NCBI RefSeq assembly: GCF_014638275.1
Contig: NZ_BMFJ01000002.1
Span: 806,001 to 870,000 of the forward strand
DNA: 64,000 nucleotides
Direction of reading: 5' to 3'
From: Primorskyibacter flagellatus
GTDB taxonomy: Bacteria > Pseudomonadota > Alphaproteobacteria > Rhodobacterales > Rhodobacteraceae
Shown here piece by piece: positions 12,502 to 41,896 of this stretch. Within the stretch, counting starts at the first letter, position 1; each line of letters begins with the position of its first letter. The notes below the pieces were generated by a model, which saw nothing but the letters and a program-made list of their open reading frames with translations, did not search any database and was not told where the DNA came from. Both the position numbers and the translations under genes were made by a program.

Positions 12502-12503
12502 AT

Positions 12504-12524: not shown

Positions 12525-12531
12525 GACACCC

Positions 12532-12786: not shown

Positions 12787-12798
12787 ACGGGGACGACC

Positions 12799-14063: not shown

Positions 14064-14074
14064 TCTGGACCGAC

Positions 14075-14827: not shown

Positions 14828-14837
14828 TTCCCGATCC

Positions 14838-14869: not shown

Positions 14870-14876
14870 GCAGAAC

Positions 14877-22394: not shown

Positions 22395-23512
22395 GCCAGG
22401 GCTTCCTTCCTGCTGGATCTGAGATAGGCGCGGCCCTCCGCCAGCCGCCGCGCGGTGCGCTTGATCTCGGCCCGCTGCACGGTCCCGTCCGCCGCGACGG
22501 CGGCATGCACGTCGATCACACCGCCGGGATGCCGGATGCGCAGGGCAGCTCCTTCGGCCACAGGCTGCGGTATGGTCAGCGCGGTGATGGTCCCCGGAAT
22601 GCGCGCAGCGACGCCGGTACAGGCGGTGACTGTCCCGGCGAAGGCCCGCGAAGTCGCACCGTTCGCATAAAGCCGGGCGGCAAGATCCGCCTCCTCCTCC
22701 GGCCTGGCCTGATCCAGCATCACGCAGATCGGACTGGCGGGGGCGGGGCGTTCGTCAAAGTAATCCCCGATGCCAAGCCGATGCGCGACGGCGCGCCGGA
22801 TCGCCTTGATCCGGGGCTGGGCGACAGGATGCACGTCCAGTTCCTGCGGGGTTTCACGCGCTGTGAGGCCGACATCCCTGGCCCGAACGAACACGACGAG
22901 GTTGGCGCAGTCCACCACCGACACCTGCACCACCTCTCCGTCCAGATCCGGCACGAAGAGGTCGGTCAGCGCCTCACCGAACGGCAGAAGCTTGCCCGTG
23001 ATCGCCCCCGCCGCCCCGGCAAAATCAAGCGGGATCGGCGCGCCGGTGCCCGGCACCCCGGCGATGGCATAATCGCCCTCTTCCACCACCGCGCCATTCG
23101 CGCAGGGCACATGCGCCACGATGATCTTACCGGTATTCTCGTTCAGGATCCGCACCGCGACGGTCCCGGTCGTCGCGGGCACCAGCCCGTTGTAGACCGC
23201 CCATGTCCCGGCGGACGCGCTGAGGTTCCCACAGTTCAGCAGGTAATCCACCCGCGGATTGTCGATCCCGACCTGGCCGAACAGATAGGTCACGTCATGA
23301 TCCGGCCCGCGCGGAGGCCCCATGACCGCCGCCTTGCTGGTCAGCTTGTCCGCCCCGCCAAGCCCGTCGATCTGGCGCATGTCGGGGCTGCCGAACAGTT
23401 CGGATAGCAGCGCCGACAGGTCCTCCCGGTCCTCCGGCACATCGTCGCGATGCAGAAACACGCCTTTCGACGTGCCGCCGCGCATCAGGGTGAAGGGAAT
23501 GGTGCGGGTCAT
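22391..23512 (-). CDS. PrpF-family isomerase
   Basis: 373 residues, full length for PrpF (2-methylaconitate cis-trans isomerase) and GalD (4-oxalomesaconate tautomerase). Typical start PFTLMRGGTSKGVFLHRDDVP. The catalytic Cys region is YLLNCGNLSASAGTWAVYNGLV (about residue 104), with the second site in ARIPGTITALTIP. The diaminopimelate-epimerase-like fold moves a proton to shift a double bond in a polycarboxylic acid. Position between acyl-CoA dehydrogenase and CoA-transferases suggests it prepares an unsaturated acid for CoA activation. Coupled by ATGA to the downstream gene. Confidence 0.88.
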   Translation of the reverse strand: MTRTIPFTLMRGGTSKGVFLHRDDVPEDREDLSALLSELFGSPDMRQIDGLGGADKLTSKAAVMGPPRGPDHDVTYLFGQVGIDNPRVDYLLNCGNLSASAGTWAVYNGLVPATTGTVAVRILNENTGKIIVAHVPCANGAVVEEGDYAIAGVPGTGAPIPLDFAGAAGAITGKLLPFGEALTDLFVPDLDGEVVQVSVVDCANLVVFVRARDVGLTARETPQELDVHPVAQPRIKAIRRAVAHRLGIGDYFDERPAPASPICVMLDQARPEEEADLAARLYANGATSRAFAGTVTACTGVAARIPGTITALTIPQPVAEGAALRIRHPGGVIDVHAAVAADGTVQRAEIKRTARRLAEGRAYLRSSRKEALA

Positions 23513-23515
23513 GCG

Positions 23516-24703
23516 CTACGCCTCCGGCCGGCCGTTGCGGAGAAGGTCGCGCGCGATGGTCCAGCGGTGGATCTCGCTCGCCCCCTCCACGATGCGGAAG
23601 ACGCGGAGGATCCGGCTCATGTATTCCAGCGGCAGTTCCTTCGACAGGCCCATGCCGCCGTGCAGCTGGATCGCCCGGTCGACAACGCGCGTCGCCATTT
23701 CCGTCGCCTGGATCTTGACCATGGCGGCCTCCCGCCGGACATCCTTTTCGCCCTGATCGATCCGCCAGGCGAGCCGGTAGGTCGCCAGCCGCGCCATCTC
23801 GAGCTCCTGCCAGCTGTCGGAAATCCAGAACTGCGTGTTCTGCCGGTCCGCCAGCGGCGCGCCGAAGGTCTTCCGCCGGTTGGCATGTTCGATCATCATG
23901 TCGATCGCCCGGCTGGCAAGGCCAAGGGACCTCGCCGCAATCTCCATCCGCCGGATGCCAAGCCGGTTGGACAGGGGCACGAAGGCCTGCCCGACCTCGC
24001 CAAGCACCTGTTCGTCGCCCAGCTCCACGTCCTGAAAATGAACGGCATAGGGATGATATTCACCGATCATCGGAAAGGAGGTCGGAATCGTCACGCCCGG
24101 CGTGTCCCGGTCCACGAGGAAGGCCGTCATCCCGCCGCGCTTGCGCTTCTCGGGGTCTGTCACGGCGATGACGATCATGAAGTCCGACCGCCGCGCGTTG
24201 GAAATCCAGATCTTCTCTCCGTTCAGTACCCACTTGTCCCCGCGCCGGTCGGCCCGCGTCTTGATCGCGGCAGCATCGGACCCGGCTTCCGGTTCGGACA
24301 GGGCGAGGCAGGATTTCTTCTCTCCGTTCACATACGGATCGAGATACCGCATCGCCTGATCCGGCGTGCACTGCTGCTTGAGGTAATAGAGGTTCGGGCT
24401 GTCCGGCGGCAGCACCAGCGGCACGATGGAATGCTTCATCTGTTCGATGACCACGCATTTCATCAGTGCGCCGAGATCCTGCCCGCCGAATTCCTCGGGC
24501 GCGTCGATGCCCCAGAGGCCAAGCGCCTGCGTCTGGCGCTGAAGATCGTCCTCCACCTCCTTCGGCAGGATCGGATCGTCGGTCATGCCGCGTTCCACCT
24601 CCCGCCGGATCACCAGCGGTTCCAGCGGGATCAGCTTGTCGCGGACAAAGCGTTTCACCACGTCCTGCGTCATCAGCACGTCTTCGGGCAGGTTGAAATC
24701 CAT
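23516..24703 (-). CDS. Acyl-CoA dehydrogenase
   Basis: 395 residues, single ACAD unit. Seen: CLALSEPEAGSDAAAIKTRADRRGDKWVLNGEKIWISNA (flavin and substrate loops), RKTFGAPLADRQNTQFWISD, QLHGGMGLSKELPLEYMSR and the catalytic-base segment RIVEGASEIHR. Oxidises an acyl-CoA to the 2-enoyl-CoA with FAD. It lies in the operon upstream of the CoA-transferases and downstream of the thiolase-like/DUF35 pair; spacing to both neighbours is three bases. Chain specificity cannot be read. Confidence 0.94.
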   Translation of the reverse strand: MDFNLPEDVLMTQDVVKRFVRDKLIPLEPLVIRREVERGMTDDPILPKEVEDDLQRQTQALGLWGIDAPEEFGGQDLGALMKCVVIEQMKHSIVPLVLPPDSPNLYYLKQQCTPDQAMRYLDPYVNGEKKSCLALSEPEAGSDAAAIKTRADRRGDKWVLNGEKIWISNARRSDFMIVIAVTDPEKRKRGGMTAFLVDRDTPGVTIPTSFPMIGEYHPYAVHFQDVELGDEQVLGEVGQAFVPLSNRLGIRRMEIAARSLGLASRAIDMMIEHANRRKTFGAPLADRQNTQFWISDSWQELEMARLATYRLAWRIDQGEKDVRREAAMVKIQATEMATRVVDRAIQLHGGMGLSKELPLEYMSRILRVFRIVEGASEIHRWTIARDLLRNGRPEA

Positions 24704-24706
24704 CGC

Positions 24707-25117
24707 TCAGCCCTCCGCCGGGGTGAAGCGCGGGATGGAGATCTCGTCCGTCACCCTGTCGAAGGTCACCTGCACCCGGTCTCCGACCTTCACCGCGTCA
24801 TTGGCCACGCCGGTCACGTTGGAGATCATGCGCGGCCCCTCGTCCAGCTGGATCAGCGCGACGTTGTAGGGCAGGTCGCCTTCGAAGGCGGCGTTATATT
24901 TCTGGTGGAAGACGATGTAGGAATAGACCTCGCCCTTGCCCGAAACCTCTGTCCATTCAGAGTCGTAGGACAGGCAGTTCGGACAGACATGCGAGACCGG
25001 ATAGCGGACATGGTCGCAGTCGCTGCACTTCTGAAGACACAGCCGTCCCTGATGCGCGGCCTCCCAGAACGGGCGGTTGACGTCGTCGAGTTCGGGAAGC
25101 GGTTTGTTGTAGCTCAT
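24707..25117 (-). CDS. DUF35 zinc-ribbon/OB-fold protein (acyl-CoA binding partner)
   Basis: 136 residues. A rubredoxin-like zinc ribbon, CSDCDHVRYPVSHVCPNC (C-x2-C-x11-C-x2-C, about residues 36-53), precedes an OB fold (EVYSYIVFHQKYN... YNVALIQLDEGPRMISNVTG). DUF35 proteins bind thiolase-like partners and help position acyl-CoA, as in Ltp2/ChsH2 retro-aldolases and archaeal HMG-CoA synthesis. The gene sits directly after the thiolase-like gene, so the two probably form one complex. Confidence 0.92.
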   Translation of the reverse strand: MSYNKPLPELDDVNRPFWEAAHQGRLCLQKCSDCDHVRYPVSHVCPNCLSYDSEWTEVSGKGEVYSYIVFHQKYNAAFEGDLPYNVALIQLDEGPRMISNVTGVANDAVKVGDRVQVTFDRVTDEISIPRFTPAEG

Positions 25118-25129
25118 CTCTCTTACCCC

Positions 25130-26275
25130 TCAGGCCGCACGCAGGATCATGGCGTTGGAACAGTTCAGCGTCATGCCGCGCCCGGTGACGAGGCAGACCT
25201 CCGCCCCCTTCACCTGCCGCGCGTCGCATTCGCCGCGCATCTGGCGCACGCCTTCGACGATGTGCAGCCAGCCCTCCATGTAGCTTTCCGACAGGTTACC
25301 CCCGGCGGTGTTCACCGGAAGTTCTCCACCAAGCTGGATGCGCCCGCCCTCGACAAAGCTGCCCGCCTCTCCGACGCCGCAGAACCCGGCGTGTTCCAGC
25401 CAGAGCAGGACGCTCATGGTGAAGTTGTCGTAAAGCTGGGCCACGTCGATGTCCTTCGGGGCCATGCCCGCCATCTTGAAGGCACGACCAAGCGCTTCCT
25501 TCTGATGCGGCACGTACCACCAGTCCTCCCGCTCCATGTTGCGGGTCGTGTAGGCCTGTCCCATGCCGGAAATCGTCACGACCGGCTTGGCCATGTCCTT
25601 CGCGCGTTCCTTGGAGGTCACGATGATGCAGACCCCGCCGTCGGAAATCAGGCAGCAGTCGAGCAGGTGGAAGGGTTCCACGATCCAGCGCGAATTCTGG
25701 TGATCCTCGATGGTGATCGGGTCGCGCATCACCGCATCGGGATTCATGGAGGCATGGCGTCGGCAGGCCACCGCGACCTCGCCCAATTGCCGGGAGGTTG
25801 TGCCGTAAAGCGCCATGTGCCGGCTGGCCGCAATCGCGGAGTTCGCCGCCGCGCCGTACATCCCCCAGATGCCCCAGCTGTCGCCCCAGCCGGAGGCGCG
25901 GTTGAACCGCGAACCGCCCGTCTTGGCCGCATCGCCGAAGACGCAGGCGACGGTTGTCGCATGCCCCGCCTCGATCGCCATGACCGCCATCTGCACGAGC
26001 GCGCCCGCCGTGCCGCCGCCCATGGTCATGGAGCCGGTGAACTTGGGGTCGATGCCAAGCGCCTCACCCACCCGCAGGTAATTCAGTGATGCTTCCGGAG
26101 AGCTCGTGCCCGGCATCGTCAGCAGCCCGTCGATATCGCCCTTCTTCAGACCCGCATCGTCAATGGCCCGCTTGAACGCCTCAACGCTCAGCATCAGCGA
26201 ACTGACGCCCGGCATCTTGCCCTGCTTGGTCTTTCCGACGCCCACGATGGCGCACTTGTCTCGTAGATCGGACAT
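25130..26275 (-). CDS. Thiolase-fold protein (SCP-x/Ltp2-like), nucleophilic Cys missing
   Basis: 381 residues. Thiolase superfamily, lipid-transfer-type: CAIVGVGKTKQGKMPGVSSLML at the start, DVAQLYDNFTMSVLLWLE and VNTAGGNLSESYMEGWLHIVEGVRQMRG near the end. The place of the usual thiolase Cys reads GSMTMGGGTAGALVQMAV, with no Cys. With its DUF35 neighbour this favours a retro-aldolase or other C-C lyase rather than a true thiolase, as reported for steroid side-chain aldolases. That assignment is inference; the family is clear. Confidence 0.85.
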   Translation of the reverse strand: MSDLRDKCAIVGVGKTKQGKMPGVSSLMLSVEAFKRAIDDAGLKKGDIDGLLTMPGTSSPEASLNYLRVGEALGIDPKFTGSMTMGGGTAGALVQMAVMAIEAGHATTVACVFGDAAKTGGSRFNRASGWGDSWGIWGMYGAAANSAIAASRHMALYGTTSRQLGEVAVACRRHASMNPDAVMRDPITIEDHQNSRWIVEPFHLLDCCLISDGGVCIIVTSKERAKDMAKPVVTISGMGQAYTTRNMEREDWWYVPHQKEALGRAFKMAGMAPKDIDVAQLYDNFTMSVLLWLEHAGFCGVGEAGSFVEGGRIQLGGELPVNTAGGNLSESYMEGWLHIVEGVRQMRGECDARQVKGAEVCLVTGRGMTLNCSNAMILRAA

Positions 26276-26301
26276 GTCTTGTCTCTCTTTCCGTTGTAAT
26301 C

Positions 26302-27078
26302 TCAGCGTCCGCGGTAAACCGGCGGGCGTTTTTCCTGGAATGCCTTCCGGCCCTCCAGCCGGTCCTCGCTGTCGCGGAGCGCCCCCCAGGCCAGACGTTC
26401 GTAATTGACGGCGGCGATCAGCGGCATTTCCGACCCGTCCCGCACCAGCCGCTTGATTGCCTTGACCGAAAGCGGCGCGTTGGCCGCGATCCGTCCCGCG
26501 ATCCGGTGTGCTTCCTCCAGCAGCTTGTCAGGCGCGACGACGCGGCTCACCAGACCCATGCGCAGGGCCTCCGCGGCATCGACCGGGTCGCCGGTCAGCA
26601 TCATCAGCATCGCATCCGATTGCCCTATGGCCCGTGGCAGCCGCTGCGACCCGCCTGCACCGGGCAGGGACCCGACCCGCACCTCGGACAGGCCGAAGCG
26701 GGCGTTTTCCGACGCGATGCGGATGTCGCAGGCCAGCGCCAGTTCCAGACCGCCGCCCATGGCATAGCCGTTCACAGCCGCAATGATCGGCGTGTCGAAC
26801 TCCATCCCGGCCAGCAGGTGATCCCGGCTGGCCATGCCGAAGAACAGCTGCGCAAAGCTTTCCTCGGGCGGGGGCGTCTTCTTCAGGTCGGACCCGGTGC
26901 AGAACGCCTTCTCTCCGGTCCCGGTCAGGATCGCGACGCGGATCTCGTCATCCGTCGCCAGCCTCTGCCAGATCTCCCGCAACTCGTCCTTGGAGGCGGG
27001 GTCGAGCGAATTCATCGCCTCCGGCCGGTTCAGGGTGACGGTCGCGATGCCGTCTGTGATGTCGAATTGTACTGACAC
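26302..27078 (-). CDS. Enoyl-CoA hydratase/isomerase
   Basis: 258 residues, crotonase fold. CoA-binding and oxyanion segments are AFCTGSDLKK and NGYAMGGGLELALACDIRIAS; the two acid/base glutamates of hydratases are present in GGGLELALACD and FGLSEVRVGSLPGAGGSQRLPR. Adds water to a 2-enoyl-CoA, the step after the acyl-CoA dehydrogenase of this operon. Lies between tctA and the thiolase-like gene, 16 and 26 bases away. Confidence 0.93.
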   Translation of the reverse strand: MSVQFDITDGIATVTLNRPEAMNSLDPASKDELREIWQRLATDDEIRVAILTGTGEKAFCTGSDLKKTPPPEESFAQLFFGMASRDHLLAGMEFDTPIIAAVNGYAMGGGLELALACDIRIASENARFGLSEVRVGSLPGAGGSQRLPRAIGQSDAMLMMLTGDPVDAAEALRMGLVSRVVAPDKLLEEAHRIAGRIAANAPLSVKAIKRLVRDGSEMPLIAAVNYERLAWGALRDSEDRLEGRKAFQEKRPPVYRGR

Positions 27079-27094
27079 GTCGTGATCCTTTCCC

Positions 27095-28612
27095 TTAATC
27101 CGCTTCCAGCGTGCCGCGCCGGGCCGACATCCGTTGCCAGACCTTCGCCAGCGGCACGGTCAGCATCAGCACGAGGACCACGATCCACAGGATCACGGAG
27201 ATCGCGCTTTCCACGAAGATCGTCAGGTCCCCGTTGCTGAGGTACAGCGCCTCGCGGAAGTGTTTCTCGATGATCGGGCCCAGCATCAGCGCCACCACCA
27301 GCGGAGCGAGGTGAAAGCCCATCTTCCGCAGGAAATATCCGACCAGCCCCATCCCGCAGAGCACCCAGACATCGAAGATCGCGTTGTGCACGCTGAACGC
27401 CCCGATCGATGCGATCACGATGATGAGCGAGATCAGGATATGCGTCGGAATGGTGAGCATCTTCACCCAGATGCCGACCATCGGGATGTTCAGCACCAGC
27501 AGCATGATGTTCCCGATATAGCAGGACACGATCACCCCCCAGAAGATGTCGGGGTGCTGGATCAGCAGCAGCGGACCCGGCTGGATGCCCTGCACCATCA
27601 TCGCGGCGATCATCAGCGCCCCGACGGTGGAGAACGGCAGGCCAAGCGCCAGCAGCGGAACCAGCGAGGACGTCGCCGCCGCGTTGTTGGCGGCCTCCGG
27701 TCCGCAGATGCCCTCGACAGCGCCGGTGCCCAGCTTGTCGCGGTTCTTCGACACGGCCTTCTCAAGCCGGTAGGCGGCAAAGCTCGACATCGTGGCCGAC
27801 GGTCCCGGCAGCAGCCCGAACAGGAAGCCGATGATCGTGCCACGCCCCCAGGGCAGCCAGGACCGGTTGACCTCTTCGCGGGTCGGAACAAGGTCGCGCC
27901 ACCCGACCGCAGGCGGCCGGATGCGGTTGGCATAGCGGTCCACCATCATCAGGATTTCGGCCACGCCGAAGGCTCCGACGACAACCGGAACAAGGCTGAA
28001 CCCATGCAGCAGGTCCTGCGTGCCGAAGGTGAACCGGTCGTAACCCGACACGGCCTCCACCCCCACGGTGGACATGGCCAGCCCCAGCACCATCGGCAGG
28101 AAACCCGAGGCAAAGGAGCCCCCGGTAATCCGCGACAGCACCAGCAGCCCGCCGGCGGTCAGCGCAAAGAATTCGGACGGACCGAAGACGATGGCGATCT
28201 CCGACAGCACCGGAGAGAACAGAAGCACCCCGATCACGGCGATGGTCCCGCCGACGAAGCTCGCCACCGCCGTCAGCGTCAGCGCGGCCCCGCCCCGGCC
28301 CTTCAGCGTCATCTGGTGCCCGTCGATGGCCGTAACGATGGACGGCGCCTCGCCGGGGATGTTGATCAGGATGCCGGTGGTGGACCCGCCGTAGAGCGAA
28401 CCGTAGTAGATCCCTGCCATCATGATCAGACCCACGGTCGGATCGAAGGTGAAGGTCAGGGGAAGGATAAGCGCGACCCCGGCCACCGGACCAAGCCCCG
28501 GCAGAACGCCGATGGCGGTGCCAAGCAGCGCACCCATGAGCGCGGCCAGCAGGTTGGCGGGCACGGTGGCGACACCGAGGCCGTAGATCAGACCTTGAAG
28601 AGCTTCGGACAT
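27095..28612 (-). CDS. tctA: Tripartite tricarboxylate transporter, large membrane subunit TctA
   Basis: 505 residues, about 12 transmembrane segments. Family signatures: LGVLPGLGPVAGVALILPLTFTFDP, YYGSLYGGSTTGILINIPGEAPSIVTAIDGH and the second pseudo-symmetric block FLFGLLPGPSATMSSFAAYRLEKAVSK. Works with TctB and the periplasmic TctC to import carboxylates using a cation gradient. The ATG at 28612 begins MSEALQGLIYGLG, the usual start; an earlier in-frame ATG overlaps tctB. Confidence 0.96.
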   Translation of the reverse strand: MSEALQGLIYGLGVATVPANLLAALMGALLGTAIGVLPGLGPVAGVALILPLTFTFDPTVGLIMMAGIYYGSLYGGSTTGILINIPGEAPSIVTAIDGHQMTLKGRGGAALTLTAVASFVGGTIAVIGVLLFSPVLSEIAIVFGPSEFFALTAGGLLVLSRITGGSFASGFLPMVLGLAMSTVGVEAVSGYDRFTFGTQDLLHGFSLVPVVVGAFGVAEILMMVDRYANRIRPPAVGWRDLVPTREEVNRSWLPWGRGTIIGFLFGLLPGPSATMSSFAAYRLEKAVSKNRDKLGTGAVEGICGPEAANNAAATSSLVPLLALGLPFSTVGALMIAAMMVQGIQPGPLLLIQHPDIFWGVIVSCYIGNIMLLVLNIPMVGIWVKMLTIPTHILISLIIVIASIGAFSVHNAIFDVWVLCGMGLVGYFLRKMGFHLAPLVVALMLGPIIEKHFREALYLSNGDLTIFVESAISVILWIVVLVLMLTVPLAKVWQRMSARRGTLEAD

Positions 28613-28619
28613 GGTGTGC

Positions 28620-29099
28620 TCAGACTCCGAGGATTCCGCGCGGCAGCGGCACGCCGAGCAGCTTGACGAAGGCAAGCCACGCAAACAGCGTCAGCCCCGC
28701 CGACCAGAGAAACTGCTTCCACCACGGCATGCCCGACAGGCTGGCGAGCACGATGAAGATGGTCACGAAAGGGGAAATGATCCGGCCCAGGAAGGGCAGG
28801 GTGACGGCGAGGAACAGCAGTGCGCCGAACACGGCGATGCACTGGCGCAGCGGCTTGCCCGCCGGCAGATAGAACGTCTCGTCCTGGCTCAGCATGGCAT
28901 ATCCGTCCGCCAGGGTGATGACCGCGGCAATGAAGATCAGCGCCGCGATAAAGAGCGGGAACAGCGCCGGACCCGGCGCGCCCATCTCTCCCACTGGCAG
29001 GTCAAGCGCCTGCCAGAGGTAGATACCGCCCACGACAAAGGCGATCACACCGGTCACGATGCGGGCCTTCGCCGTGGAGAAATCGCGCGAGTCCGACAT
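28620..29099 (-). CDS. tctB: Tripartite tricarboxylate transporter, small membrane subunit TctB
   Basis: 159 residues with four hydrophobic segments (around residues 15-30, 43-61, 86-102 plus 105-120, and 126-150). The GAPGPALFPLFIAALIFIAAV motif is the conserved G-x-x-x-FP region of TctB. Lies between tctC and tctA, with short gaps of 5 and 7 bases. Confidence 0.9.
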   Translation of the reverse strand: MSDSRDFSTAKARIVTGVIAFVVGGIYLWQALDLPVGEMGAPGPALFPLFIAALIFIAAVITLADGYAMLSQDETFYLPAGKPLRQCIAVFGALLFLAVTLPFLGRIISPFVTIFIVLASLSGMPWWKQFLWSAGLTLFAWLAFVKLLGVPLPRGILGV

Positions 29100-29104
29100 C
29101 TGGA

Positions 29105-30073
29105 TCAGCCGCCGATGAACGCGAGGATCTGGGCGAAGATCTCGCTGTACTCACGCAGCTCCTGCTCAGCTTCTTCCGGCGTCTTCGGGTCGAGCTGGTA
29201 GGAGTTGGTTTCCGCGAACTTCACGAAATCCCCGGCCTGTACGGCCTGCGCGGATGCCTCGATCAGCTTCCGCTTCACGTCGTCCGGCATCCCGTTCGGC
29301 GCGATCACGTAGTAGGAGGCGGGCAGGTATTGCTTGTAGCCCAGCTCGCTGACCGGCGTCGCTTCGGGGAAGGCCTCGTAGACCTTGTCGTTGAACACGC
29401 CAAGCGCCCGGATCTTGCCCGCATCCACATAGCTGCGGATCGACGGCCCGTACCCGACGGAGGCTTCGACCCGGCCCGACAGCACCGCCGTCAGCGCCTC
29501 ACCGCCGCCGCCCGAGAAGGGCACGGTCCGGATGTCGATGTCCTCGTTGTTGGCGTTGATGTATTGCACCACCAGATCCGGCGCCGTCCGCAGGCCCGAC
29601 ACGGAAACCCGCACTTCGCCCGGTTTCGCCTTCACCTCGTTCATGAACTCTTCCAGCGTCTGCCACGGCGCATCGGCCGACACGTAGAGAACCGCGGGAA
29701 GATCGACGAGCTTCACCAGGATCTCGTAGTCATCCGGAGAGGCATAGGCGAGGTTGTCCTTGTCCAGCGGCTGATACGCCAGAGAGGAGTTGGAACCGAG
29801 CCCGATCATGTAGCCATCCGGGTCCGACTTCACGACGTCGCCGGTGCCGATTGTGGCCGACCCGCCGGGGCGGTTTTCCACGACGACGTTGCGGTCGAGG
29901 ATCTTCGACAGCTCTGCCGAGAACGCCCGTCCGATCGGATCGGTGGACCCGCCCGGGTTGTAGGGTACAACGAATGTCAGGTCGCGGTCCGGGTAGGACT
30001 GCGCGACAGCGCCCGTCGCGAGTGTGGTAAGAGAGACCGCGCCCGCGGCCAGTATCGTATTCAAGATTTTCAT
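29105..30073 (-). CDS. tctC: Tripartite tricarboxylate transporter solute-binding protein TctC
   Basis: 322 residues. MKILNTILAAGAVSLTTLATGAVA is a signal peptide. The Bug/TctC family features are PDRDLTFVVPYNPGGSTDPIGRAFSAEL, VVENRPGGSATIGTGDVVKSDPDGY and LGVFNDKVYEAFPEATPVSELGY. The periplasmic receptor determines the ligand, generally a carboxylate; the exact acid is not readable. It is the second gene of the operon after the flavin reductase. Confidence 0.95.
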   Translation of the reverse strand: MKILNTILAAGAVSLTTLATGAVAQSYPDRDLTFVVPYNPGGSTDPIGRAFSAELSKILDRNVVVENRPGGSATIGTGDVVKSDPDGYMIGLGSNSSLAYQPLDKDNLAYASPDDYEILVKLVDLPAVLYVSADAPWQTLEEFMNEVKAKPGEVRVSVSGLRTAPDLVVQYINANNEDIDIRTVPFSGGGGEALTAVLSGRVEASVGYGPSIRSYVDAGKIRALGVFNDKVYEAFPEATPVSELGYKQYLPASYYVIAPNGMPDDVKRKLIEASAQAVQAGDFVKFAETNSYQLDPKTPEEAEQELREYSEIFAQILAFIGG

Positions 30074-30105
30074 AGTTTCCTCCCTATTATCTTGATGTTT
30101 GTCAG

Positions 30106-30732
30106 TTAAATTCGCACCCGCTCGGGCGGCAGCTGCTCTACCACCTCGCCCAGCCCGGCCCAGTCACGGTAGCCAAGCCGGCAGACCGGCTGCATCAGGC
30201 GCAGGTCGATGCGCCCGTCGGTGAGCACGTCGTCCCGGATGTGGATCCCGATGACTTCGCCCACGACGATCATGTTGCTCCGCCCCGCCTTGCGCGCGGG
30301 CAGCGGCACGTTGGTGTAGTGACGGCACTCCAGGCTGACCGGCGCCTCCGCCACCCTGTCGGGCCCGACCAGCCGCGACGCGGCAGAGGCGACCGAGACC
30401 TGTTCGAACTCGTCTTCCTCCGGCGCGAACTGGGCAGAGGACAGGTTCACCGCCTCGCGTTGCGCCCAGCTTGCGAGGTTCACGACGAATTCACCGGTGT
30501 CCTCGATGTTGCAGAAGGTGTCCTTGGCCCGCCCTTCGGCGTTCCGCCCCGGCATCCCGAGCGCCACCATAGGAGGCGCCCAGGAAAACGCGTTGAAGAA
30601 GCTGAACGGCGCGAGGTTGCGCACGCCTGCCGGGCTCCTGGTCGAAACCCAGGCGATCGGACGCGGCACGATGCACGCCTTGAAGGGATCGTGCGGTAGC
30701 CCGTGCGGATCGATTTCCGGCCTGTAGAACAT
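30106..30732 (-). CDS. Flavin reductase-like FMN-binding split-barrel protein
   Basis: 208 residues. Split-barrel flavin-binding domain: CIVPRPIAWVSTRSPAGVRNLAPFSFFNAFSWAPPMVALG near the N-terminus, then DTFCNIEDTGEFVVNLAS and VVGEVIGIHI. Members reduce FMN with NAD(P)H or bind FMN for a partner oxygenase; no oxygenase is seen here. GGGAGG before the ATG at 30732 defines the start and sits beside a hairpin. First gene of the left catabolic arm; a LysR-type site is centred 84 bases upstream. Confidence 0.9.
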   Translation of the reverse strand: MFYRPEIDPHGLPHDPFKACIVPRPIAWVSTRSPAGVRNLAPFSFFNAFSWAPPMVALGMPGRNAEGRAKDTFCNIEDTGEFVVNLASWAQREAVNLSSAQFAPEEDEFEQVSVASAASRLVGPDRVAEAPVSLECRHYTNVPLPARKAGRSNMIVVGEVIGIHIRDDVLTDGRIDLRLMQPVCRLGYRDWAGLGEVVEQLPPERVRI

Positions 30733-30739
30733 TGCTCCT

Positions 30740-30767
30740 CCCGAGAACATGCAGGCATTCTCACGGG
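30740..30767 (-). promoter_or_regulatory. Leader hairpin next to the ribosome site of the flavin reductase gene
   Basis: On the minus strand CCCG-T-GAGAA pairs with TTCTCGGG around a 10-base loop: nine base pairs and one bulged T. The 3' arm ends in the GGG of the GGGAGG ribosome site for the ATG at 30732. It could tune translation of the first gene of the operon; no folding energy was computed. Confidence 0.4.
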
Positions 30768-30808
30768 AACGGACCGGACGGTACAACCGATTACTTTGGC
30801 GACGGCTG

Positions 30809-30823
30809 TTGAGAAAAATTCAA
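30809..30823. promoter_or_regulatory. LysR-type operator, left arm
   Basis: TTGAGAAAAATTCAA: 15-bp inverted repeat with TTGA/TCAA arms and the T-N11-A core of LysR sites. It is centred at 30816, 84 bases before the start codon of the left operon (30732). Its twin is at 31773-31787. Confidence 0.6.
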
Positions 30824-30856
30824 ATGTGTGCGCTGCGGCGCAGCGATGCCAAAGCC

Positions 30857-31753
30857 TTATCCTTCCAGGATCTCGGCCTCCGCGACAATCCAGTCGCGGA
30901 ACTCCGACAGCTCTTTCGGGTTGTCGTGATCTTCCGGATAAATGAGGAAAAACCCGCCGTTGGCCCGCATGGAGAAGTCGATCGGTGCCGCCAGACGACC
31001 CGCACTCAGATCGTCCCGGACCAGCGCCCGCTGACCAAGAGCAAAGCCAAGTTTCTGCTCTGCAGCGCTGTAGGCGAGAATGGAACTCTCGAACCGCATC
31101 CCGGAATAAGGATCGACCGACGTGACATTCGCGGCCTCCAGATACCGCCGCCAGTCCTCGATTCGGACCAGCGAATGAAGCAGCGTCGACTGCGCCAGAT
31201 CGGCCGGGCTCCGAAAGTTTCCCGAAGCCGCAAGCGCCGGGCTGCACACCGGAACGAGGTCGGTCTTGACCAGTGGGATCGCGATGCACCCGGGCCATTC
31301 CGTGCCGGTCCCGTAGCGGATCGCGATGTCGATGTCGCCCGACCGGAAATCCACGGGCTTCAGTGAGGTGGTGAGGATCACATCCGGTCCGGACCGCTCT
31401 GCATGATACGATGACAGTCGCGGCACCAGCCAGCGCATCGAAAAGGTCATGGAGGACCATATCCGCAGCGGCCGGCGCTCCCCCCGGCTTAGTAACCGTT
31501 CCGTCGCGCCATGCAGTTGACTGAACAGAAGGGTCGATATTTCAAGGTACTGTCGACCGCTGGTTGTCAGCTTCGCTTCGCGCGCCGTGCGTTCAAACAG
31601 GTCGAGCCCCAGGAAGGTTTCCAGGTTCTTGATCTGACGGCTGATCGCACCGGGCGTCACGCAGAGTTCGTCCGCCGCCGCGGTAAAGCTCTTCAGCCGC
31701 GCGGCAGCTTCAAAGCTGCGAAGGGCATTCAGGGGGGGCAGTTTCCAGACCAT
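30857..31753 (-). CDS. LysR-family transcriptional regulator (GcvA-like)
   Basis: 298 residues. Winged helix-turn-helix at the N-terminus: LPPLNALRSFEAAARLKSFTAAADELCVTPGAISRQIKNLETFLGLDLFER, the GcvA-subgroup pattern, followed by a periplasmic-binding-like effector domain (PLRIWSSMTFSMRWLVPRL and beyond). AAGGA precedes the ATG at 31753; an ATG five codons upstream (31768) is less likely. The gene sits between two catabolic arms and is flanked on both sides by the same 15-bp inverted repeat, so it probably controls both, with a pathway metabolite as effector. Confidence 0.92.
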   Translation of the reverse strand: MVWKLPPLNALRSFEAAARLKSFTAAADELCVTPGAISRQIKNLETFLGLDLFERTAREAKLTTSGRQYLEISTLLFSQLHGATERLLSRGERRPLRIWSSMTFSMRWLVPRLSSYHAERSGPDVILTTSLKPVDFRSGDIDIAIRYGTGTEWPGCIAIPLVKTDLVPVCSPALAASGNFRSPADLAQSTLLHSLVRIEDWRRYLEAANVTSVDPYSGMRFESSILAYSAAEQKLGFALGQRALVRDDLSAGRLAAPIDFSMRANGGFFLIYPEDHDNPKELSEFRDWIVAEAEILEG

Positions 31754-31772
31754 GACCGTCCTTGGCACAGGG

Positions 31773-31787
31773 TTGAGATTTTCTCAA
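31773..31787. promoter_or_regulatory. LysR-type operator, right arm
   Basis: TTGAGATTTTCTCAA: perfect 6-bp arms (TTGAGA/TCTCAA) around TTT, with a T-N11-A core. It lies 20 bases before the lysR start and is centred at 31780, 84 bases before the start of the right operon (31864). Likely binds the adjacent LysR protein and may also autoregulate it. Confidence 0.7.
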
Positions 31788-31863
31788 ATATGGGTACACA
31801 AAACTCGTTTGACCGCCAACCCGCATTTCCGCTTCACTCGCCCCGCAAGAGGAGGAGAAGCCG

Positions 31864-32940
31864 ATGGTGTCCGTGTCCCGGACGGCGCTGGCGTCGTTCA
31901 TGACAGAGATACTCCGCTCCGGCGGCATGGACCCGGAGTCCGCCGCCGTGGCCGCCGACTGTTTCGCTGAGGCCGACGCTTCGGGTGTCAGCACGCATGG
32001 TGCGGCACGGCTCGCGGCCTATCACGATGCGCTCATGCGCGGGCAGATCAACGCACGCCCGGACATTCGGACCGAACGCGACGCGGTTTTCCTGCGCATC
32101 GACGGCGACAACGGGCTTGGCCCCGCCGTCGCCGCCCGGATGGCCCGCGCCGCCTGCGACGTGGCGAAGGAAACCGGCATGTGCCTTGCCACCGTGCGCC
32201 ACTCCAATCATTTCGGCATCGCCTCCTACTACGCGGACATGGCGACCCGGCAGGGCATGATCGCCATGGTCTTTTCCAACGCCTCCCCAACCGTCGCCCC
32301 CTTTGGCGGCCGCGAGGCGCGGCTTGGCACCAACCCGGTTGCACTGGCCGCACCCGGTGGCACCAGGGAAGACGGTTTCACGCTGGACATGGCGACTTCT
32401 GTCGTGTCGCGCGGCCGCATCCGCCAGATGGGCGGCGACGACGCCACCGTGCCCGACGACTGGGCCGTAACCGCAACCGGCGATCCCGCCCGCACCGTGG
32501 CCGAGGTCATGAGCGGTGCCCTCCGGCCCTTCGGCGGTGCGCGCGGATCCGGCATCGCGCTGTTCGTCGACCTGATGGCCGGGGTCCTGTCGAACGGCAG
32601 TTTCGGCACCGATCTCGGCACCATGTACAGCGATGGAAACCGCCCCTCCGGAACCGGTCACGCGATGATCGTGATCGACGCGGAACGCGCGCTTGGTTCC
32701 GGGGATTGGGGGGAGCGGTTCGACGCCTTCGCCCGCGGCATCCGCACCAGCCGGCCGGACCTTGACCACGACGCCGTATCCCTGCCCGGGGACCGCCGCG
32801 CCCGCACACGCAACGAAACCGCCCGCACCGGCATCCCGCTACGCGGGGCTGTCTGGGATTCCCTGCGCGATCTGTCGGATCGAACCGGCATCCCGTTGCC
32901 CGAACACAGGCCGGATCAGATGCAAGGAATGACCGCATGA
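31864..32940 (+). CDS. Malate/L-lactate dehydrogenase family oxidoreductase (Ldh2 type)
   Basis: 358 residues. Non-Rossmann NAD(P)-dependent dehydrogenase family (COG2055) that includes malate, sulfolactate, ureidoglycolate and piperidine-2-carboxylate enzymes. Seen: ADASGVSTHGAARLAAYHDALMRGQIN, DGDNGLGPAVAARMAR, catalytic His segment VRHSNHFGIASYYADMA and GTNPVALAAPGG. First gene of the right catabolic arm, preceded by a strong GAGGAGG site and the LysR operator. Its stop overlaps the PrpD-family start as ATGA. The substrate is probably a 2-hydroxy or 2-keto acid. Confidence 0.92.
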   Translation: MVSVSRTALASFMTEILRSGGMDPESAAVAADCFAEADASGVSTHGAARLAAYHDALMRGQINARPDIRTERDAVFLRIDGDNGLGPAVAARMARAACDVAKETGMCLATVRHSNHFGIASYYADMATRQGMIAMVFSNASPTVAPFGGREARLGTNPVALAAPGGTREDGFTLDMATSVVSRGRIRQMGGDDATVPDDWAVTATGDPARTVAEVMSGALRPFGGARGSGIALFVDLMAGVLSNGSFGTDLGTMYSDGNRPSGTGHAMIVIDAERALGSGDWGERFDAFARGIRTSRPDLDHDAVSLPGDRRARTRNETARTGIPLRGAVWDSLRDLSDRTGIPLPEHRPDQMQGMTA

Positions 32941-34307
32941 AGGATACGGAGACCGCCGCCGCCACCCGGAAAATCGCCCGGTTCATCGCGGAAAACCCCG
33001 ATTTCGGGTCTGATGACACCTGCCGCCTGCTGGCCCGGCGCGCCCTTCTCGACACGATGGCCTGCGCCATCGGCGGGTCCGGCGAACCGGCCTCGCGCGC
33101 CGCGCTTACTCTCGCGACAGAGGGTCCGCAGGGCCGGGCGCGGGTCTGGGCCACCGGCCATCGTGCCACGACCGAACTCGCGGCTTTCGCCAATGGCGTA
33201 TCGGGGCATGTTCTGGATTTCGACGACGTCACCGCCCCGATGCGCGGCCATCCCAGCATCGCGCTGCTTCCCGCCCTGATCGCCGTGGCGGAAGAGCGTG
33301 TGCTGACCATGGATCGCGTTGACCGCGCCTATGCCGTCGGTTTTGAACTGATCTGCCGCTTCAGCCACGCCGCCGCCGACGGGCACTATGCGCGGGGCTG
33401 GCACACGACACCGACCATCGGCGGACTTGGCGCGGTGGCGGCACTGGCCCATCTGCTTGGCCTGTCTGAAACGCAGACCCGCCACGCCTTCGGTCTCGCC
33501 CTGACGCAGCTGGCGGGCACGCGCGGCAACTTCGGTTCCATGGCCAAGAGCGTTCAGGCCGGGCAGGCCTCCCGCGCTGCACTGTTTGCGGTGCGCCTTG
33601 CCGAACTCGGCTTCGACGCGGCGGACGACTCCCTGGACGGCGACCAGGGGTTCCTGACCCTCTACACGAACGAATCCGGGTTTGGTGACCATCTGGAGGG
33701 GTTGGGCACAGGGGAACCGGAGCTGCTCCGCTCGGGTATCGAGGTGAAGAAATATCCGCTGTGCTACGCGACACACCGCGCGGTCGACGGGCTGCTGGAC
33801 CTGATGAAGGAGACCCCCGGTCTCACCCTCGCCTCTGTCGTCAGCGCTCGGATCCACGGCTCCCCCCGCGCCTTCGTGCCGCTGATCCATTCCCGCCCCC
33901 GCACCGGGCTGGAGGGCAAGTTCAGCATGGAATACGCGGTTGCCGCCGCCCTGTCTGATGGGGAGATCACGCTCGCCTCCTTCACCGATGACCGGGTACA
34001 AAGGCCGGAGGTCCAGGCGGCGTTCGACCGCATCACGGTCTCCGCCGATACCGAAGGGTCGCTCCTCCCTCGCTGGACCGACATCTCCCTCACGCTCGCG
34101 GATGGCCGCATCCTCACGAAACGGGTGGAGGTTCTGCGCGGCAGCGCCGATCACCCCCTGACGGAAGCAGAGCTGATGGCGAAGGTCGCGGACTGCTGCC
34201 GCCATGCGGGCGGCCGGATCGATCCGGAGAAGCTGGGACGCACCATCCTCGACAGCACGGACCTGCGGGTGTCGGATCTTCTGGACAGCGTTCTGCCGCG
34301 TGGGTGA
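32937..34307 (+). CDS. MmgE/PrpD family protein
   Basis: 456 residues, complete. Family members are 2-methylcitrate dehydratase, cis-aconitate decarboxylase and iminodisuccinate epimerase. Seen: LLDTMACAIGGSGEPAS, VSGHVLDFDDVTAPMRGHPSIALLPAL (active-site D-D and H), RGWHTTPTIGGLGAVAALAHLLGL and VKKYPLCYATHRAVDGLLDL. The enzyme acts on a polycarboxylate by proton abstraction. Coupled by ATGA to the dehydrogenase upstream and overlapping the next gene by 8 bases. Confidence 0.9.
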   Translation: MKDTETAAATRKIARFIAENPDFGSDDTCRLLARRALLDTMACAIGGSGEPASRAALTLATEGPQGRARVWATGHRATTELAAFANGVSGHVLDFDDVTAPMRGHPSIALLPALIAVAEERVLTMDRVDRAYAVGFELICRFSHAAADGHYARGWHTTPTIGGLGAVAALAHLLGLSETQTRHAFGLALTQLAGTRGNFGSMAKSVQAGQASRAALFAVRLAELGFDAADDSLDGDQGFLTLYTNESGFGDHLEGLGTGEPELLRSGIEVKKYPLCYATHRAVDGLLDLMKETPGLTLASVVSARIHGSPRAFVPLIHSRPRTGLEGKFSMEYAVAAALSDGEITLASFTDDRVQRPEVQAAFDRITVSADTEGSLLPRWTDISLTLADGRILTKRVEVLRGSADHPLTEAELMAKVADCCRHAGGRIDPEKLGRTILDSTDLRVSDLLDSVLPRG

Positions 34308-35352
34308 CCTGCTTCGAATAGCCCTGACGCTTGCCATCGGCACCGTTGGCGGCGCCATCTTCTTCTGGCTCAACCTGCCGCTGCCGTGGCTTCTCGGCGC
34401 GATGCTGTCGGTCACAATAGTCTCTATTGGCGGTTTCGAGATGAAATCCCGGATCGAACTGCGCAACATGGGCCTCGCCGTTCTGGGCGTTTTCATCGGC
34501 TCCGGCTACGGACCGCACGCCTTCGACGGGATCGCGACCTGGGTCCCGACCATCCTCGGCACCATGCTTGTCACGACCATCGCGGGCAGTGCCGGGATCT
34601 GGTACCTGAAGTCGCGCGCGCATCAGGATTCCGCCACCGCCTATTTCTCTGCCATGCCCGGGGGTATGAACGAGATGGTCGTGGTCGGCGAACGCTTTGG
34701 CGCCGACATCCGCTATGTCGCACTGTCCCATGCCGTGCGCGTTCTGGTCACGATCTCTTTCGTCGCCTTTGCTTTCCGGATCATGGACGGTTACGTCCCC
34801 GATCCCAGTGTTCGCGGTCAGGATCATCCCTTCATCCTGTCACAACAACTGATGCTGCTTGCCGTGGCCGTGACCGGTGCGCTGGTCGGGCGCCTGCTGC
34901 GCCTGCCCGCGCCGTTCTTCTTCGGGCCGATCCTGTTCAGCATCGCCGCCCATGGCTTCGGGCTCGAAGGACAGCCGCCCGCGCTGTTGCAGGCCGCCGC
35001 GCAGGTTGTGGTCGGCTCCACCCTCGGCAGCCGGTTTGTCGGGGTGACGGCGCGCGACATTTCCTCGACGATGTGGCGGAGTTGCATCGTCACCGGCATC
35101 CAGCTGTCCGCCGCGCTTGGTGTGGCGGCGGTTCTGGGTCAGCTACTGCCCTGGGGCACCAAGACCATCTTCCTCGCCTTCGCGCCCGCGGGGATTGCCG
35201 AGATGACGATCACCGCCATCGCGCTCGGCTATGACGCACCGTTCGTGGCGGCGCATCAGCTGGCGCGGGTCATCCTCGTCTTTGCCCTGTCGCCGCTCGT
35301 CTTCGGCTATCTTAGGCGACGCGCGCTATTCAAAGGAAAACAGACACCATGA
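34300..35352 (+). CDS. AbrB-family membrane protein (putative transporter)
   Basis: 350 residues, about 10 hydrophobic segments. Duplicated AbrB/'ammonia monooxygenase' domain: the repeat features LPWLLGAMLSV and LPAPFFFGPILFS, and the conserved FSAMPGGMNEMVVVGERFGAD followed later by FLAFAPAGIAEMTITAIALG. A role in export or import of a pathway acid is inferred from context. GTG at 34300 is taken as start because it gives a short lead into the first membrane segment; the open frame before it is part of the prpD-like gene. ATGA overlap with the next gene. Confidence 0.82.
   Translation: MGDLLRIALTLAIGTVGGAIFFWLNLPLPWLLGAMLSVTIVSIGGFEMKSRIELRNMGLAVLGVFIGSGYGPHAFDGIATWVPTILGTMLVTTIAGSAGIWYLKSRAHQDSATAYFSAMPGGMNEMVVVGERFGADIRYVALSHAVRVLVTISFVAFAFRIMDGYVPDPSVRGQDHPFILSQQLMLLAVAVTGALVGRLLRLPAPFFFGPILFSIAAHGFGLEGQPPALLQAAAQVVVGSTLGSRFVGVTARDISSTMWRSCIVTGIQLSAALGVAAVLGQLLPWGTKTIFLAFAPAGIAEMTITAIALGYDAPFVAAHQLARVILVFALSPLVFGYLRRRALFKGKQTP
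34417..34428 (+). repeat. ATAG-N3-CTATT motif, copy 2 (in abrB-like gene)
   Basis: ATAG-TCT-CTATT; with its flanks CACAATAGTCTCTATTGGCG it matches the copy in hemW at 19 of 20 bases although genes and reading frames differ. It forces the rare codons ACA, ATA, TCT and ATT. Confidence 0.45.
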
Positions 35353-36221
35353 CCGAAAGCCTGACCCTCACCGCACCGACCGAAGCCACCCGGAAACTGG
35401 ATGCACAGGCAGAGCGGCGCGAGACCCCGCTGCCCGGTGGCGGCCGAATGGTCTGGCGCACCTGGGGCACCGGCCCGTCCCTTGTCCTGCTGCACGGCGG
35501 TCACGGCAGCTGGATGCACTGGGCTGCCGTCATTCCGTACCTGTCGCAACGCTGGACGCTGGTTGTGCCCGACCTGCCCGGTTTCGGTCAAAGCGACGAC
35601 ATCTCCGGCGATCCCCCGATCGAAACCATCGGTCAGGCGGTCGCCGAAGGGGCCATGCAGATCATCCCCGACGGACCGATCCGGATCGCAGGCTTCTCTT
35701 TCGGCGGCGTTCTTGGCGGCCATGTCGGCAAGGGCTGCGGTGACCGGCTGGCGCATCTGGTAATCATCGGATCAAGCGGGATGAAGCTGACACGCCCGGA
35801 CATGGAGAAGCTGCACAACTGGAAGGCTGTACCTGAAGACGAACGGGACGCGATCCACCGCCGCAATCTTGGCATCCTGATGATTTCACCCTCAAGCGAG
35901 ATCACGGACGAGATGGTCGCGATCCAGCGCGCCAACACCATGATGGCGCGGGGGCGAAGCCGGTCCTTCTCCGTCACGACGACGCTTCTGGACGTGCTGC
36001 GCGACTACCGCCCGCCGCTGGACGGTATCTGGGGTGCGGAGGATGCGACCGCCAAAGGCCACCTGCACGAACGGCGCGACGCGCTCAGGGTGCTCGACCC
36101 GACCAGCGACTTCGTGGAAATCCCCGATGCCGGTCACTGGGTTGCCATGGACCGGCCCGAGGCGCTGACCCGCGCGCTCGAGAAACTGCTTCTTAAACGC
36201 ATGGGCCGGGCGGGGACCTGA
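35349..36221 (+). CDS. Alpha/beta hydrolase
   Basis: 290 residues. LVLLHGGHGSWMHW is the oxyanion HG segment, IAGFSFGGVLGGH the nucleophile elbow (Ser at about residue 117), and PDAGHWVAMDRPEAL carries the catalytic His near the C-terminus; the acid residue is likely Asp in GIWGAEDATA. Related to MhpC/BchO-type hydrolases. Last gene of the right arm, coupled by ATGA. It may hydrolyse an ester, lactone or C-C bond of the pathway; unspecified. Confidence 0.88.
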   Translation: MTESLTLTAPTEATRKLDAQAERRETPLPGGGRMVWRTWGTGPSLVLLHGGHGSWMHWAAVIPYLSQRWTLVVPDLPGFGQSDDISGDPPIETIGQAVAEGAMQIIPDGPIRIAGFSFGGVLGGHVGKGCGDRLAHLVIIGSSGMKLTRPDMEKLHNWKAVPEDERDAIHRRNLGILMISPSSEITDEMVAIQRANTMMARGRSRSFSVTTTLLDVLRDYRPPLDGIWGAEDATAKGHLHERRDALRVLDPTSDFVEIPDAGHWVAMDRPEALTRALEKLLLKRMGRAGT

Positions 36222-36233: not shown

Positions 36234-38495
36234 TCAGTTCACCTTGCTCGCCGCCAGCAGCGCCATGTTCATGATGTCGTTGACGGTCGCGTTGGTCGAA
36301 CAGATCTGGATCGGCTTGTCGACGCCCGACAGGATCGGCCCGATCACCGTCGCCCCCGCCATCTCCTGCATCAGTTTTACACTGATACTGGCGGAATGGC
36401 GCGCCGGCACAACGAGGATGTTCGCGTTGTCCGTCAGCCGGGCGAAGGGAAACTGCGACCGGGCGCGGGCGTTCAGGGCCACATCGACGGTCATCTCGCC
36501 CTCATATTCGAAATCGACGCCCCGCTCTTCCAGCACACGCGGGGCGATATGCATCTTCTCCGCCCGCTCCGACACCGGATAGCCGAAGGTGGAGAAGCTG
36601 ACGAAGGCAACCCGCGGCTCCAGCCCCAGATCACGCGCTACCTCGGCACAGCGTTCGGCGATATCCGCAAGGTCTTCCTCATCCGGCCATTCATGCACGA
36701 GCGTGTCCGAGATCAGCACGATCCGCCCCTTGTGGATCACCGCCGTCACACCCGCCACACCATGCGCCGCATCCGCATCGAACACGTGGTTGATCAGTTC
36801 CAGCACATGCGCCGACTTGCGCGTCGCCCCGGTGACAAGCCCGTCACCATGCCCGTGCGCCAGCATCAGGGCCGAGAAGACGTGCCGGTCGCGCGCCGCC
36901 AGCCTGTGCACGTCGTGCTGGTCCATACCCTTGCGGTTCAGCCGGTTGTAAAGAAACGCCTTGTACGTCTCCAGATGTTCGGTCTTCGCCGCATTGGTGA
37001 TTGTCAGTTCCTCGAACGCATCGCCAAGCCCGGCCGCTTCCAGCTTCTTCTGCACATCGGCGTCGCGCCCGACGACAATTGCCTCGCCCAGACCGGCCCG
37101 CTGATACTGCACCGCCGCCCGCAGCACACGCGGATCGTCGCCCTCCGCAAAGATCATCCGCGCCTGCGCGTTCCGCGCCCGCGTGTTGATCGACCGCAGG
37201 ATCGAGGCCGTGGGATCCATCCGGCTTTTCAGGTTCAGCTCATAGGCTTCCATATCGATGATCGGCCGCCGCGCCGCGCCCGTGTCCATCCCGGCCCGCG
37301 CAACGGCGGGGGGGATGCGATGGATCAGCCGGGGATCGAAGGGGGTCGGAATGATGTAGTCGCGCCCGAAGGTCAGCGCCCGTCCATAGGCCATCGCCAC
37401 CTCGTCCGGCACGTCCTCGCGCGCCAGTTCGGCCAGCGCCTCCGCACAGGCAATCTTCATCTCGTCGTTGATCGCGCGGGCATGGATGTCGAGCGCACCG
37501 CGGAACAGATAGGGAAACCCGAGCACGTTGTTCACCTGGTTTGGATAGTCGCTGCGCCCGGTGGCGACGATCACATCCTCGCGCACCTCGTGCACCTCTT
37601 CCGGGGTCACCTCCGGATCCGGGTTCGCCATGGCGAAGATCACGGCATCCTTGGCCATGCTCATCACCATCTCCTGCGTCACCGCGCCCTTGACCGACAC
37701 GCCAAGGAAGACGTCGGCCCCCTTCATCGCCTCTTCCAGCGTGCGCAGTTCCGTCTTCACGGCATGGGCCGACTTCCACTGGTTCATCCCGTCGGTCCGG
37801 CCCTGCCAGATCACGCCCTTGGTGTCGCAGACAATGCAGTTGTCGTGCCGCGCGCCCATCCGCTTGAGCAGTTCGATGCAGGCGATCCCCGCAGCGCCGG
37901 CCCCGTTGAGCACGATCTTCACATCCTCGATCGCCTTGCCCGAGATCTTCAGCGCATTGATAAGCCCCGCCGCACAGATCACCGCCGTCCCGTGCTGGTC
38001 GTCGTGGAAGACGGGGATGTCCATCTCCTCCTTCAACCGTTGCTCGATGATGAAGCACTCCGGCGCCTTGATGTCCTCAAGGTTGATGCCGCCAAAGCTG
38101 GGCCCCATCAGCTTGACCGCGTTGATGAAGGCCTCCGTATCCTCGGTATCCAGCTCCAGGTCGATGGAGTTCACATCGGCGAACCGCTTGAACAGAACCG
38201 ACTTCCCTTCCATCACCGGCTTGGAGGCCAGGGCCCCGAGGTTCCCCAGCCCCAGCACCGCCGTCCCGTTGGAAATGACCGCCACAAGGTTCCCCTTGTT
38301 CGTATAGTCATAAACGGTTTCCGGGTTCTCGAAGATCGCCTCGCAGGGAACGGCGACGCCGGGCGAATAGGCCAGCGACAGGTCGCGCTGCGTCGTCATC
38401 GGCACCGTCGCCTGCACCTCCCACTTGCCGGGGGTCGGCTCCAGATGGAATGCAAGCGCATCCTCGCGCGTGATGCGGGACTTCGGTTTCGACAT
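36234..38495 (-). CDS. maeB: NADP-dependent malic enzyme with phosphotransacetylase-like C-terminus (MaeB)
   Basis: 753 residues. Residues 1-430 form the malic enzyme: [29 protein letters not shown] (metal and catalytic region) and [11 protein letters not shown]-type nucleotide loop ([18 protein letters not shown]). Residues from 440 resemble phosphotransacetylase ([33 protein letters not shown]) and are usually regulatory, not catalytic. Decarboxylates malate to pyruvate with NADPH. Single gene, divergent from mutS with 120 bases between. Confidence 0.96.
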
Positions 38496-38615
38496 GGGGC
38501 CTCTCCTCCTGCGGCTCAGGCGTCTTACACGGGGCGCACGCCCCGCTCAACCATTTCGCCTTTCACGCCCGACTCCCGCTGGTTAAGGTCGGGTCCGACA
38601 GACCGGAGGGCCGCC

Positions 38616-41264: not shown

Positions 41265-41280
41265 CGCCACGCCCCCCTTC

Positions 41281-41326
41281 ATCTTGCCGAAAATACTCTC
41301 GCCGAAGGCAGTCCGACGAAGTCGGA
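41281..41326. terminator. Gap between mutS and grpE with small hairpin
   Basis: TCCGAC-GAA-GTCGGA (41312-41326) forms a 6-bp stem in the 62-base gap between convergent mutS and grpE. The preceding TCTTGCCGAAAATACTC resembles short AT-containing elements I recall at 3' ends in Roseobacter genomes; only one copy is in this window. Probably a weak bidirectional stop. Confidence 0.35.
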
Positions 41327-41887: not shown

Positions 41888-41896
41888 GTCTCACCT

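Follow-up and report, generated by a model that had tools for sequence, protein, structure and literature searches.

Among described systems, the closest to the locus analysed here is GcvA of Escherichia coli, a LysR-type regulator which, in the accessible sections of PMC5002191 and PMC3658693, serves more than one target unit (gcvA-gcvB and gcvTHP). According to the same part of PMC5002191, a strong 15-bp T-N11-A dyad at -65 from the target start overlaps the promoter of the regulator, and a weak dyad at -43 lies beside the -35 element. The available portion of PMC5603801 gives a general LysR scheme with a -65 and a -35 site, the latter without a known conserved sequence. Here we examined a 64,000-bp stretch of Primorskyibacter flagellatus (contig NZ_BMFJ01000002.1, positions 806,001 to 870,000), referred to below as the window, in which a lysR gene of the GcvA subfamily is placed between two catabolic arms, the left one on the minus strand (start 30732) and the right one on the plus strand (start 31864). 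Judged from the sequence, this one regulator very probably controls both arms through two near-identical composite operators, and by analogy the window would fit the -65/-35 scheme twice over.

The regulator subfamily is the same as in E. coli, and more than one target unit, a 15-bp T-N11-A dyad overlapping the regulator promoter about 65 bp from the target start and a second, weaker site beside the -35 element are all predicted to recur in the window. On the other hand, the half-site is TTGAG and not the ATTAG of GcvA proper (ATTAG-n5-CTAAT according to PMC5002191, against TTGAG-N5-YTCAA here, with the spacing and T-N11-A retained), the target is a carboxylate/coenzyme A (CoA) catabolic cluster instead of glycine cleavage, and the window has a second operator between the regulator gene and the arm that runs in the same direction. 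In PnpR of Pseudomonas sp. WBC-3, as presented in the accessible part of PMC5603801, one LysR protein activates several catabolic operons with a similar T-N11-A site at each, which is also what the window sequence would predict; there, however, the distance to pnpR is 16 kb or more, the dyad is GTT-N11-AAC and mutation of the site had no effect at one promoter. MmsR of Pseudomonas denitrificans (PMC6441110 and PMC4617489, in the parts available) likewise combines a strong upstream dyad with a weak operator beside the -35 element, and its catabolic genes are divergent from the regulator, but its dyad is AATGTGCAA-N15-TTGCACATC and a single target promoter is treated there.

Each dyad of the window is one half of a larger operator, as a TCGKTTG half-box follows 17-18 bp on toward the arm and overlaps a possible -35 box. 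The elements concerned are the following.

30106-30732, minus strand: first gene of the left arm, flavin-reductase-like protein (Pfam PF01613, expectation value (E) 3.9e-21)
30781-30786, minus strand: possible -35 element TTGTAC of the left arm, read from the sequence and tentative, overlapping the half-box
30784-30790, minus strand: site 1 half-box TCGGTTG, 18 bp beyond the dyad (composite score 24.4)
30809-30823, minus strand: site 1 dyad TTGAGAAAAATTCAA (TTGAATTTTTCTCAA on the minus strand), facing the left arm
30857-31753, minus strand: lysR, GcvA-subfamily LysR-type regulator of 298 amino acids (Pfam PF00126 and PF03466; NCBIfam NF008352), the ATG start being assumed
31773-31787, plus strand: site 2 dyad TTGAGATTTTCTCAA (IR1), predicted regulatory binding site, facing the right arm
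31805-31811, plus strand: site 2 half-box TCGTTTG, 17 bp beyond the dyad (composite score 24.0), a box conserved in homologues
31809-31814, plus strand: possible -35 element TTGACC of the right arm, read from the sequence and tentative, overlapping the half-box
31864-32940, plus strand: first gene of the right arm, malate/L-lactate-dehydrogenase-like protein (Ldh_2; Pfam PF02615, E 4.3e-102)

An earlier note on this DNA had reported the two 15-mers as twin operators, and its coordinates for them were exact, as was the T-N11-A core (the T is the second and the A the fourteenth base of the dyad). The sites are real, but each is only a part of the longer composite, which had been overlooked; as for the symmetry, TTGAG-N5-YTCAA is indeed shared, whereas the palindrome of site 1 is imperfect. 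The dyad centres (30816 and 31780) lie, as had been claimed, exactly 84 bases from the start codons at 30732 and 31864, but this equality is less remarkable than it first appeared, since the geometry of operator and -35 element plus a short leader accounts for it. Because the distances of other operators vary, the 84 bp is a product of these parts and not a signal itself: among 18 operators measured outside the window, with start codons that we assigned, three weaker ones on contig C4 of the same genome (see below) lie at 84, 85 and 102 bp, and 15 in other genomes at 100-157 bp. Site 2, a T-N11-A dyad between a regulator and a divergent target as in divergent-promoter operators, is also 27 bp upstream of the lysR ATG at 31753 (12 bp if an in-frame GTG at 31768 were the start).

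Both dyads are rare. The exact motif gave three matches in the window (two places, one of them matching on both strands), compared with a mean of 0.09 and a maximum of 2 in 100 dinucleotide shuffles, and allowing one mismatch added no further place (4 matches, with 3.21 expected). Across the genome (4,612,182 bases) it is found at three places with five matches over both strands, and the reversed control pattern at one place with one match. The third genomic place is C4:5475-5489, 47 bp past the stop codon of a lysR paralogue. The looser core TTGA-N7-TCAA, with 13 genomic places against 8 for its reversed control, is by itself little informative; yet among these 13 places, of which the remaining 11 were scanned within L034 and L049-L057, the only composites scoring at least 11 are sites 1 and 2. 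Given the dyad, the chance of the site 1 box at a spacing of 17 or 18 is about 6e-5 (4 of 127,980 positions reach its score). One pair of core places elsewhere in the genome (contig C3) was set aside, as it lies in and beside genes that read as multicopper-oxidase-like and efflux-like and shows no composite.

Conservation of the composite was observed near related regulators. When the 80 bp ahead of each of 37 lysR homologues, six of them paralogues of the same genome, were compared, TTGA-N7-TCAA came top of all 4+4 dyads (4 of 37 regions, the mean over all dyads tested being 0.08), and the runner-up TGAG-N5-CTCA (3 of 37) is the same type of site shifted one base inward. By eye, many of these regions also carry CAAACGA 17-18 bp farther from lysR. 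Composite scores of at least 12 were reached in 13 of 31 upstream regions of other genomes, compared with a mean of 0.04 and a maximum of 1 in 100 shuffled sets. We trained a composite model on 20 of the 31 regions (score at least 11, spacing 17 or 18), with zero input from the own genome, and ran it on both strands of the window; site 1 ranked first with 24.4 bits and site 2 second with 24.0 bits, each on the strand facing its own arm, and the third match had 9.7 bits. This ranking, together with the composite at related lysR genes, lends independent support from sequence to the proposal in the earlier note of one LysR, two operators and one regulon, which we regard as well supported.

Scans of whole clusters with the same model (cut-off at least 11) revealed three composites in the G589 region and four in that of G871; as one of each was in the training set, two and three were outside it, and the extra ones stand ahead of genes that do not adjoin lysR. 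Two composites each were found in L020, L023, L024 and L036, one of those in L036 being beside a second lysR, and L059 holds a single one, located away from the lysR gene there. No composite of at least 11 was found at the regulator loci L006, L007, L009, L011-L013, L017, L030, L042, L043 and L045-L048, nor in the wider stretches L035, L038 and L060. In L020, L023 and L024, from three other genomes, about 500 bp separate the two composites, which both lie upstream of lysR and both have a start codon after them; in L020 the N-termini encoded there resemble each other.

Two further models were run. R1 was built from all columns of 15 homologue operators and, with filters off, placed sites 1 and 2 as its top two matches in the window, site 1 first (8.6 and 6.7 bits, E 0.24 and 0.96), while a third match of 5.7 bits overlaps site 2. 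For R2, built from eight operators of three other genomes, a search of the own genome with a limit of E 10 had site 2 as its sole match (E 0.0013). At E up to 0.01, R2 matched 4 of 385 genomes of the class in a run whose stricter filters lose weak matches, namely the own genome, G589 (in training), G507 and G608; in the last two, which are untrained, the match directly adjoins a lysR 37 and 33% identical to the window LysR, respectively.

Several points weigh against the two-operator reading. The composite template was first spotted with site 2 in view (site 1 played no part in defining it), which makes the counts in homologues circular to some degree, and the R2 operators were picked using the same template; moreover, 11 of the 31 regions yielded no training composite. 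With default filters R1 gave no match in the genome that holds the window, even with E as high as 10; over 19 sources it gave five matches, of which four were sites it had been trained on and none was a window site, and it also missed the extra G589 and G871 operators. A guess is that AT-rich spacer columns penalise the own genome. R2 reports site 1 as a dyad alone, on the other strand (8.3 bits), and not as a composite. None of the fetched loci, most of them about 1.5 kb per side, with 3 of 23 matches of one search unfetched and with no search made with the arm proteins, matched the flavin reductase or Ldh_2; and as this gene order was thus not seen at any other locus, site 1 has no direct footprint. 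A promoter and terminator scan of 30600-32000 found neither, with no consensus sigma-70 promoter, and the -10 elements of both arms are weak by eye. Activator-dependent promoters commonly have no consensus promoter. Finally, binding, inducer, activation and autorepression are predictions from sequence.

It is worth asking whether site 2 alone, as a classical divergent operator, does the work, with site 1 a relic or the site of another protein and the left arm transcribed together with lysR. We regard this as unlikely. It would agree with the R2 result and with the arrangement of lysR and the left arm, which are co-directional on the minus strand and just 124 bp apart. However, the weaker support for site 1 is confined to R2; the composite model scores it as high as site 2 (24.4 and 24.0, respectively), and R1 with filters off ranks it first. 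The R2 training spacers are 17 in seven of eight cases, and that of site 1 is 18. The box of site 1 also stands at the right spacing at the low chance given above, and the extra composites in G589 and G871 precede genes that are not beside lysR.

A second rival, which we likewise find improbable, is that the dyads are operators of one of two LysR paralogues encoded on contig C4, or targets common to all three. This contig of the own genome (G000) carries, at L034 coordinates 2700-15600, a second, related CoA-dependent catabolic cluster with two lysR genes, whose products are 40 and 38% identical to the window LysR and form one clade with it and with the G589 and G871 regulators (support 97/87). 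The cluster has composites of its own at positions 4409, 10523 and 14676, two of the three with TCGTTTGAC; with R2 the composite at 14675 reached 12.4 bits, more than the others. Yet these composites are weaker (scores 14.7, 13.8 and 12.9), the window lysR sits between the two sites, and site 2 stands ahead of this gene, where the operator of a LysR gene is usually located. As for further candidates on C4, TTGAGCGGACCTCAA, the third genomic place of the motif, is doubtful as an operator, since its TCGTTTG is on the wrong side and 2 bp away and the composite scores below 11; TTGAGATTTTGTCAT before the second C4 lysR has no box and is probably due to chance, as by our estimate are many 8-of-10 matches. 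At C4:5466-5489 (L034 5466-5489), TCGTTTGAC is followed directly by TTGAGCGGACCTCAA after the lysR stop, an unusual order of elements.

The weakest rival, a match by chance or through some AT-rich feature that promoters share in general, with no relation to LysR, could point to the barely enriched core (13 places against 8) but is scarcely credible for two places less than 1 kb apart that flank one lysR and have the box, the orientation and the conservation in homologues.

The clusters of G589, G871 and C4 resemble the window cluster in their enoyl-CoA hydratase (60-63% identical) and in the thiolase-like and DUF35 proteins (30-40%). A wider reading, which we put forward only tentatively and consider rather doubtful, is that this clade (the regulators of the window, the C4 pair, G589 and G871) uses a portable composite, TTGAG-N5-CTCAA-N17/18-TCGTTTGAC, copied before several units of CoA-dependent catabolic clusters and having a conserved activation half-site, and that the three regulators of the own genome may cross-talk, joining the window and C4 clusters in a larger regulon.

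Under the two-operator reading, one LysR dimer would occupy the dyad TTGAG-N5-YTCAA, about 64 bp from a transcription start predicted by hand from the tentative -35 element. Upon binding of the inducer, a second dimer would extend to the TCGKTTG half-box, which adjoins the -35 element, and recruit RNA polymerase. Site 2 would drive the right arm and, at 27 bp from the lysR start, should repress lysR as well. The left arm follows lysR on the minus strand, so that its expression would hinge on lysR transcription, itself autorepressed, if site 1 did not give it an inducible promoter of its own; autorepression at site 2 would thus explain why the co-directional left arm has a separate operator.

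The window protein belongs to the LysR-type regulators, with HTH_1 (PF00126, E 4.2e-20) and LysR_substrate (PF03466, E 2.9e-28) above gathering thresholds, and passes the GcvA subfamily model NF008352 narrowly (298.2 bits against a cut-off of 288). Its nearest solved structure is 8y6u, a glycine cleavage system transcriptional activator (E 7.3e-57). With the operator difference described above, sequence comparison identifies it as GcvA-like and not GcvA itself. Protein searches covered overlapping sets of 60, 394, 22, 289, 398 and 7 genomes at thresholds of 1e-60 to 1e-70, with only part of the candidates scored in the larger sets; the best homologue had 50% identity (G589), and no close orthologue was found in them. 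In 21 other genomes of the genus there was one match at E 1e-60 (43% identity), the contig search gave four loci (best 38%), and the plasmid search gave 315 records, all below 60% identity, with 47.8% the best among the matches listed. When recognition helices were compared with half-sites in 22 of 38 regulators (those with a dyad, the window LysR included), TGA was present in 16 of 16 half-sites of the SR type and in 12 of 28 of the SH type. This speaks for the two-operator reading, with the caveats that the rows are related and that four dyads (L017, L030, L042 and L044) were taken by eye or below threshold. That the helix type tracks the half-site among homologues is suggestive only.

The remaining genes of the two arms are as follows.

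21174-30073, minus strand: remainder of the left arm (TctC, TctB and TctA transporter, enoyl-CoA hydratase, thiolase-like/DUF35 pair, acyl-CoA dehydrogenase, PrpF, CoA-transferase III)
32937-36221, plus strand: remainder of the right arm (MmgE/PrpD, AbrB-type membrane protein, alpha/beta hydrolase)

In the left arm, TctC, enoyl-CoA hydratase, PrpF and CoA-transferase III were assigned by Pfam, the thiolase-like protein and acyl-CoA dehydrogenase by NCBIfam matches under curated cut-offs, and TctB, TctA (without an NCBIfam match) and DUF35 by reading the translations. By its predicted genes, the cluster is of a carboxylic-acid/CoA-type catabolic kind, and the close spacing of the left-arm genes suggests a single transcript. 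Both arm start codons are preceded by a purine-rich, Shine-Dalgarno-like stretch (GGGAGGAGCAATG and GAGGAGGAGAAGCCGATG), and an Rfam scan of 29000-33000 at the gathering threshold gave zero matches. The left arm ends in a tandem pair of CoA-transferase III genes (19969-22394), the second named from its translation; such tandem pairs were also read from translations in the G589 and G871 clusters. Housekeeping genes adjoin the end of the right arm (36234-42961; maeB-like, mutS-like, grpE-like and hrcA-like by their translations). Given these neighbours and the scarce lysR matches in the genus, the catabolic genes may form an accessory region that was inserted here.

The proposed mechanism is textbook LysR and follows the GcvA/LysR promoter scheme already known, to which the window adds a second operator. 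A literature search, mostly of titles and abstract openings and including the letters of the half-box together with LysR, brought up no description of this operator that we recognised. What is new is mainly the clarity with which the same switch is seen in distant relatives; the member and the half-site variant are new to us. A predicted operator is now available for an uncharacterised GcvA-like branch and is tied to one kind of catabolic cluster. The conserved half-box, together with the match between helix and half-site, could let the targets of many unnamed LysR regulators be predicted.

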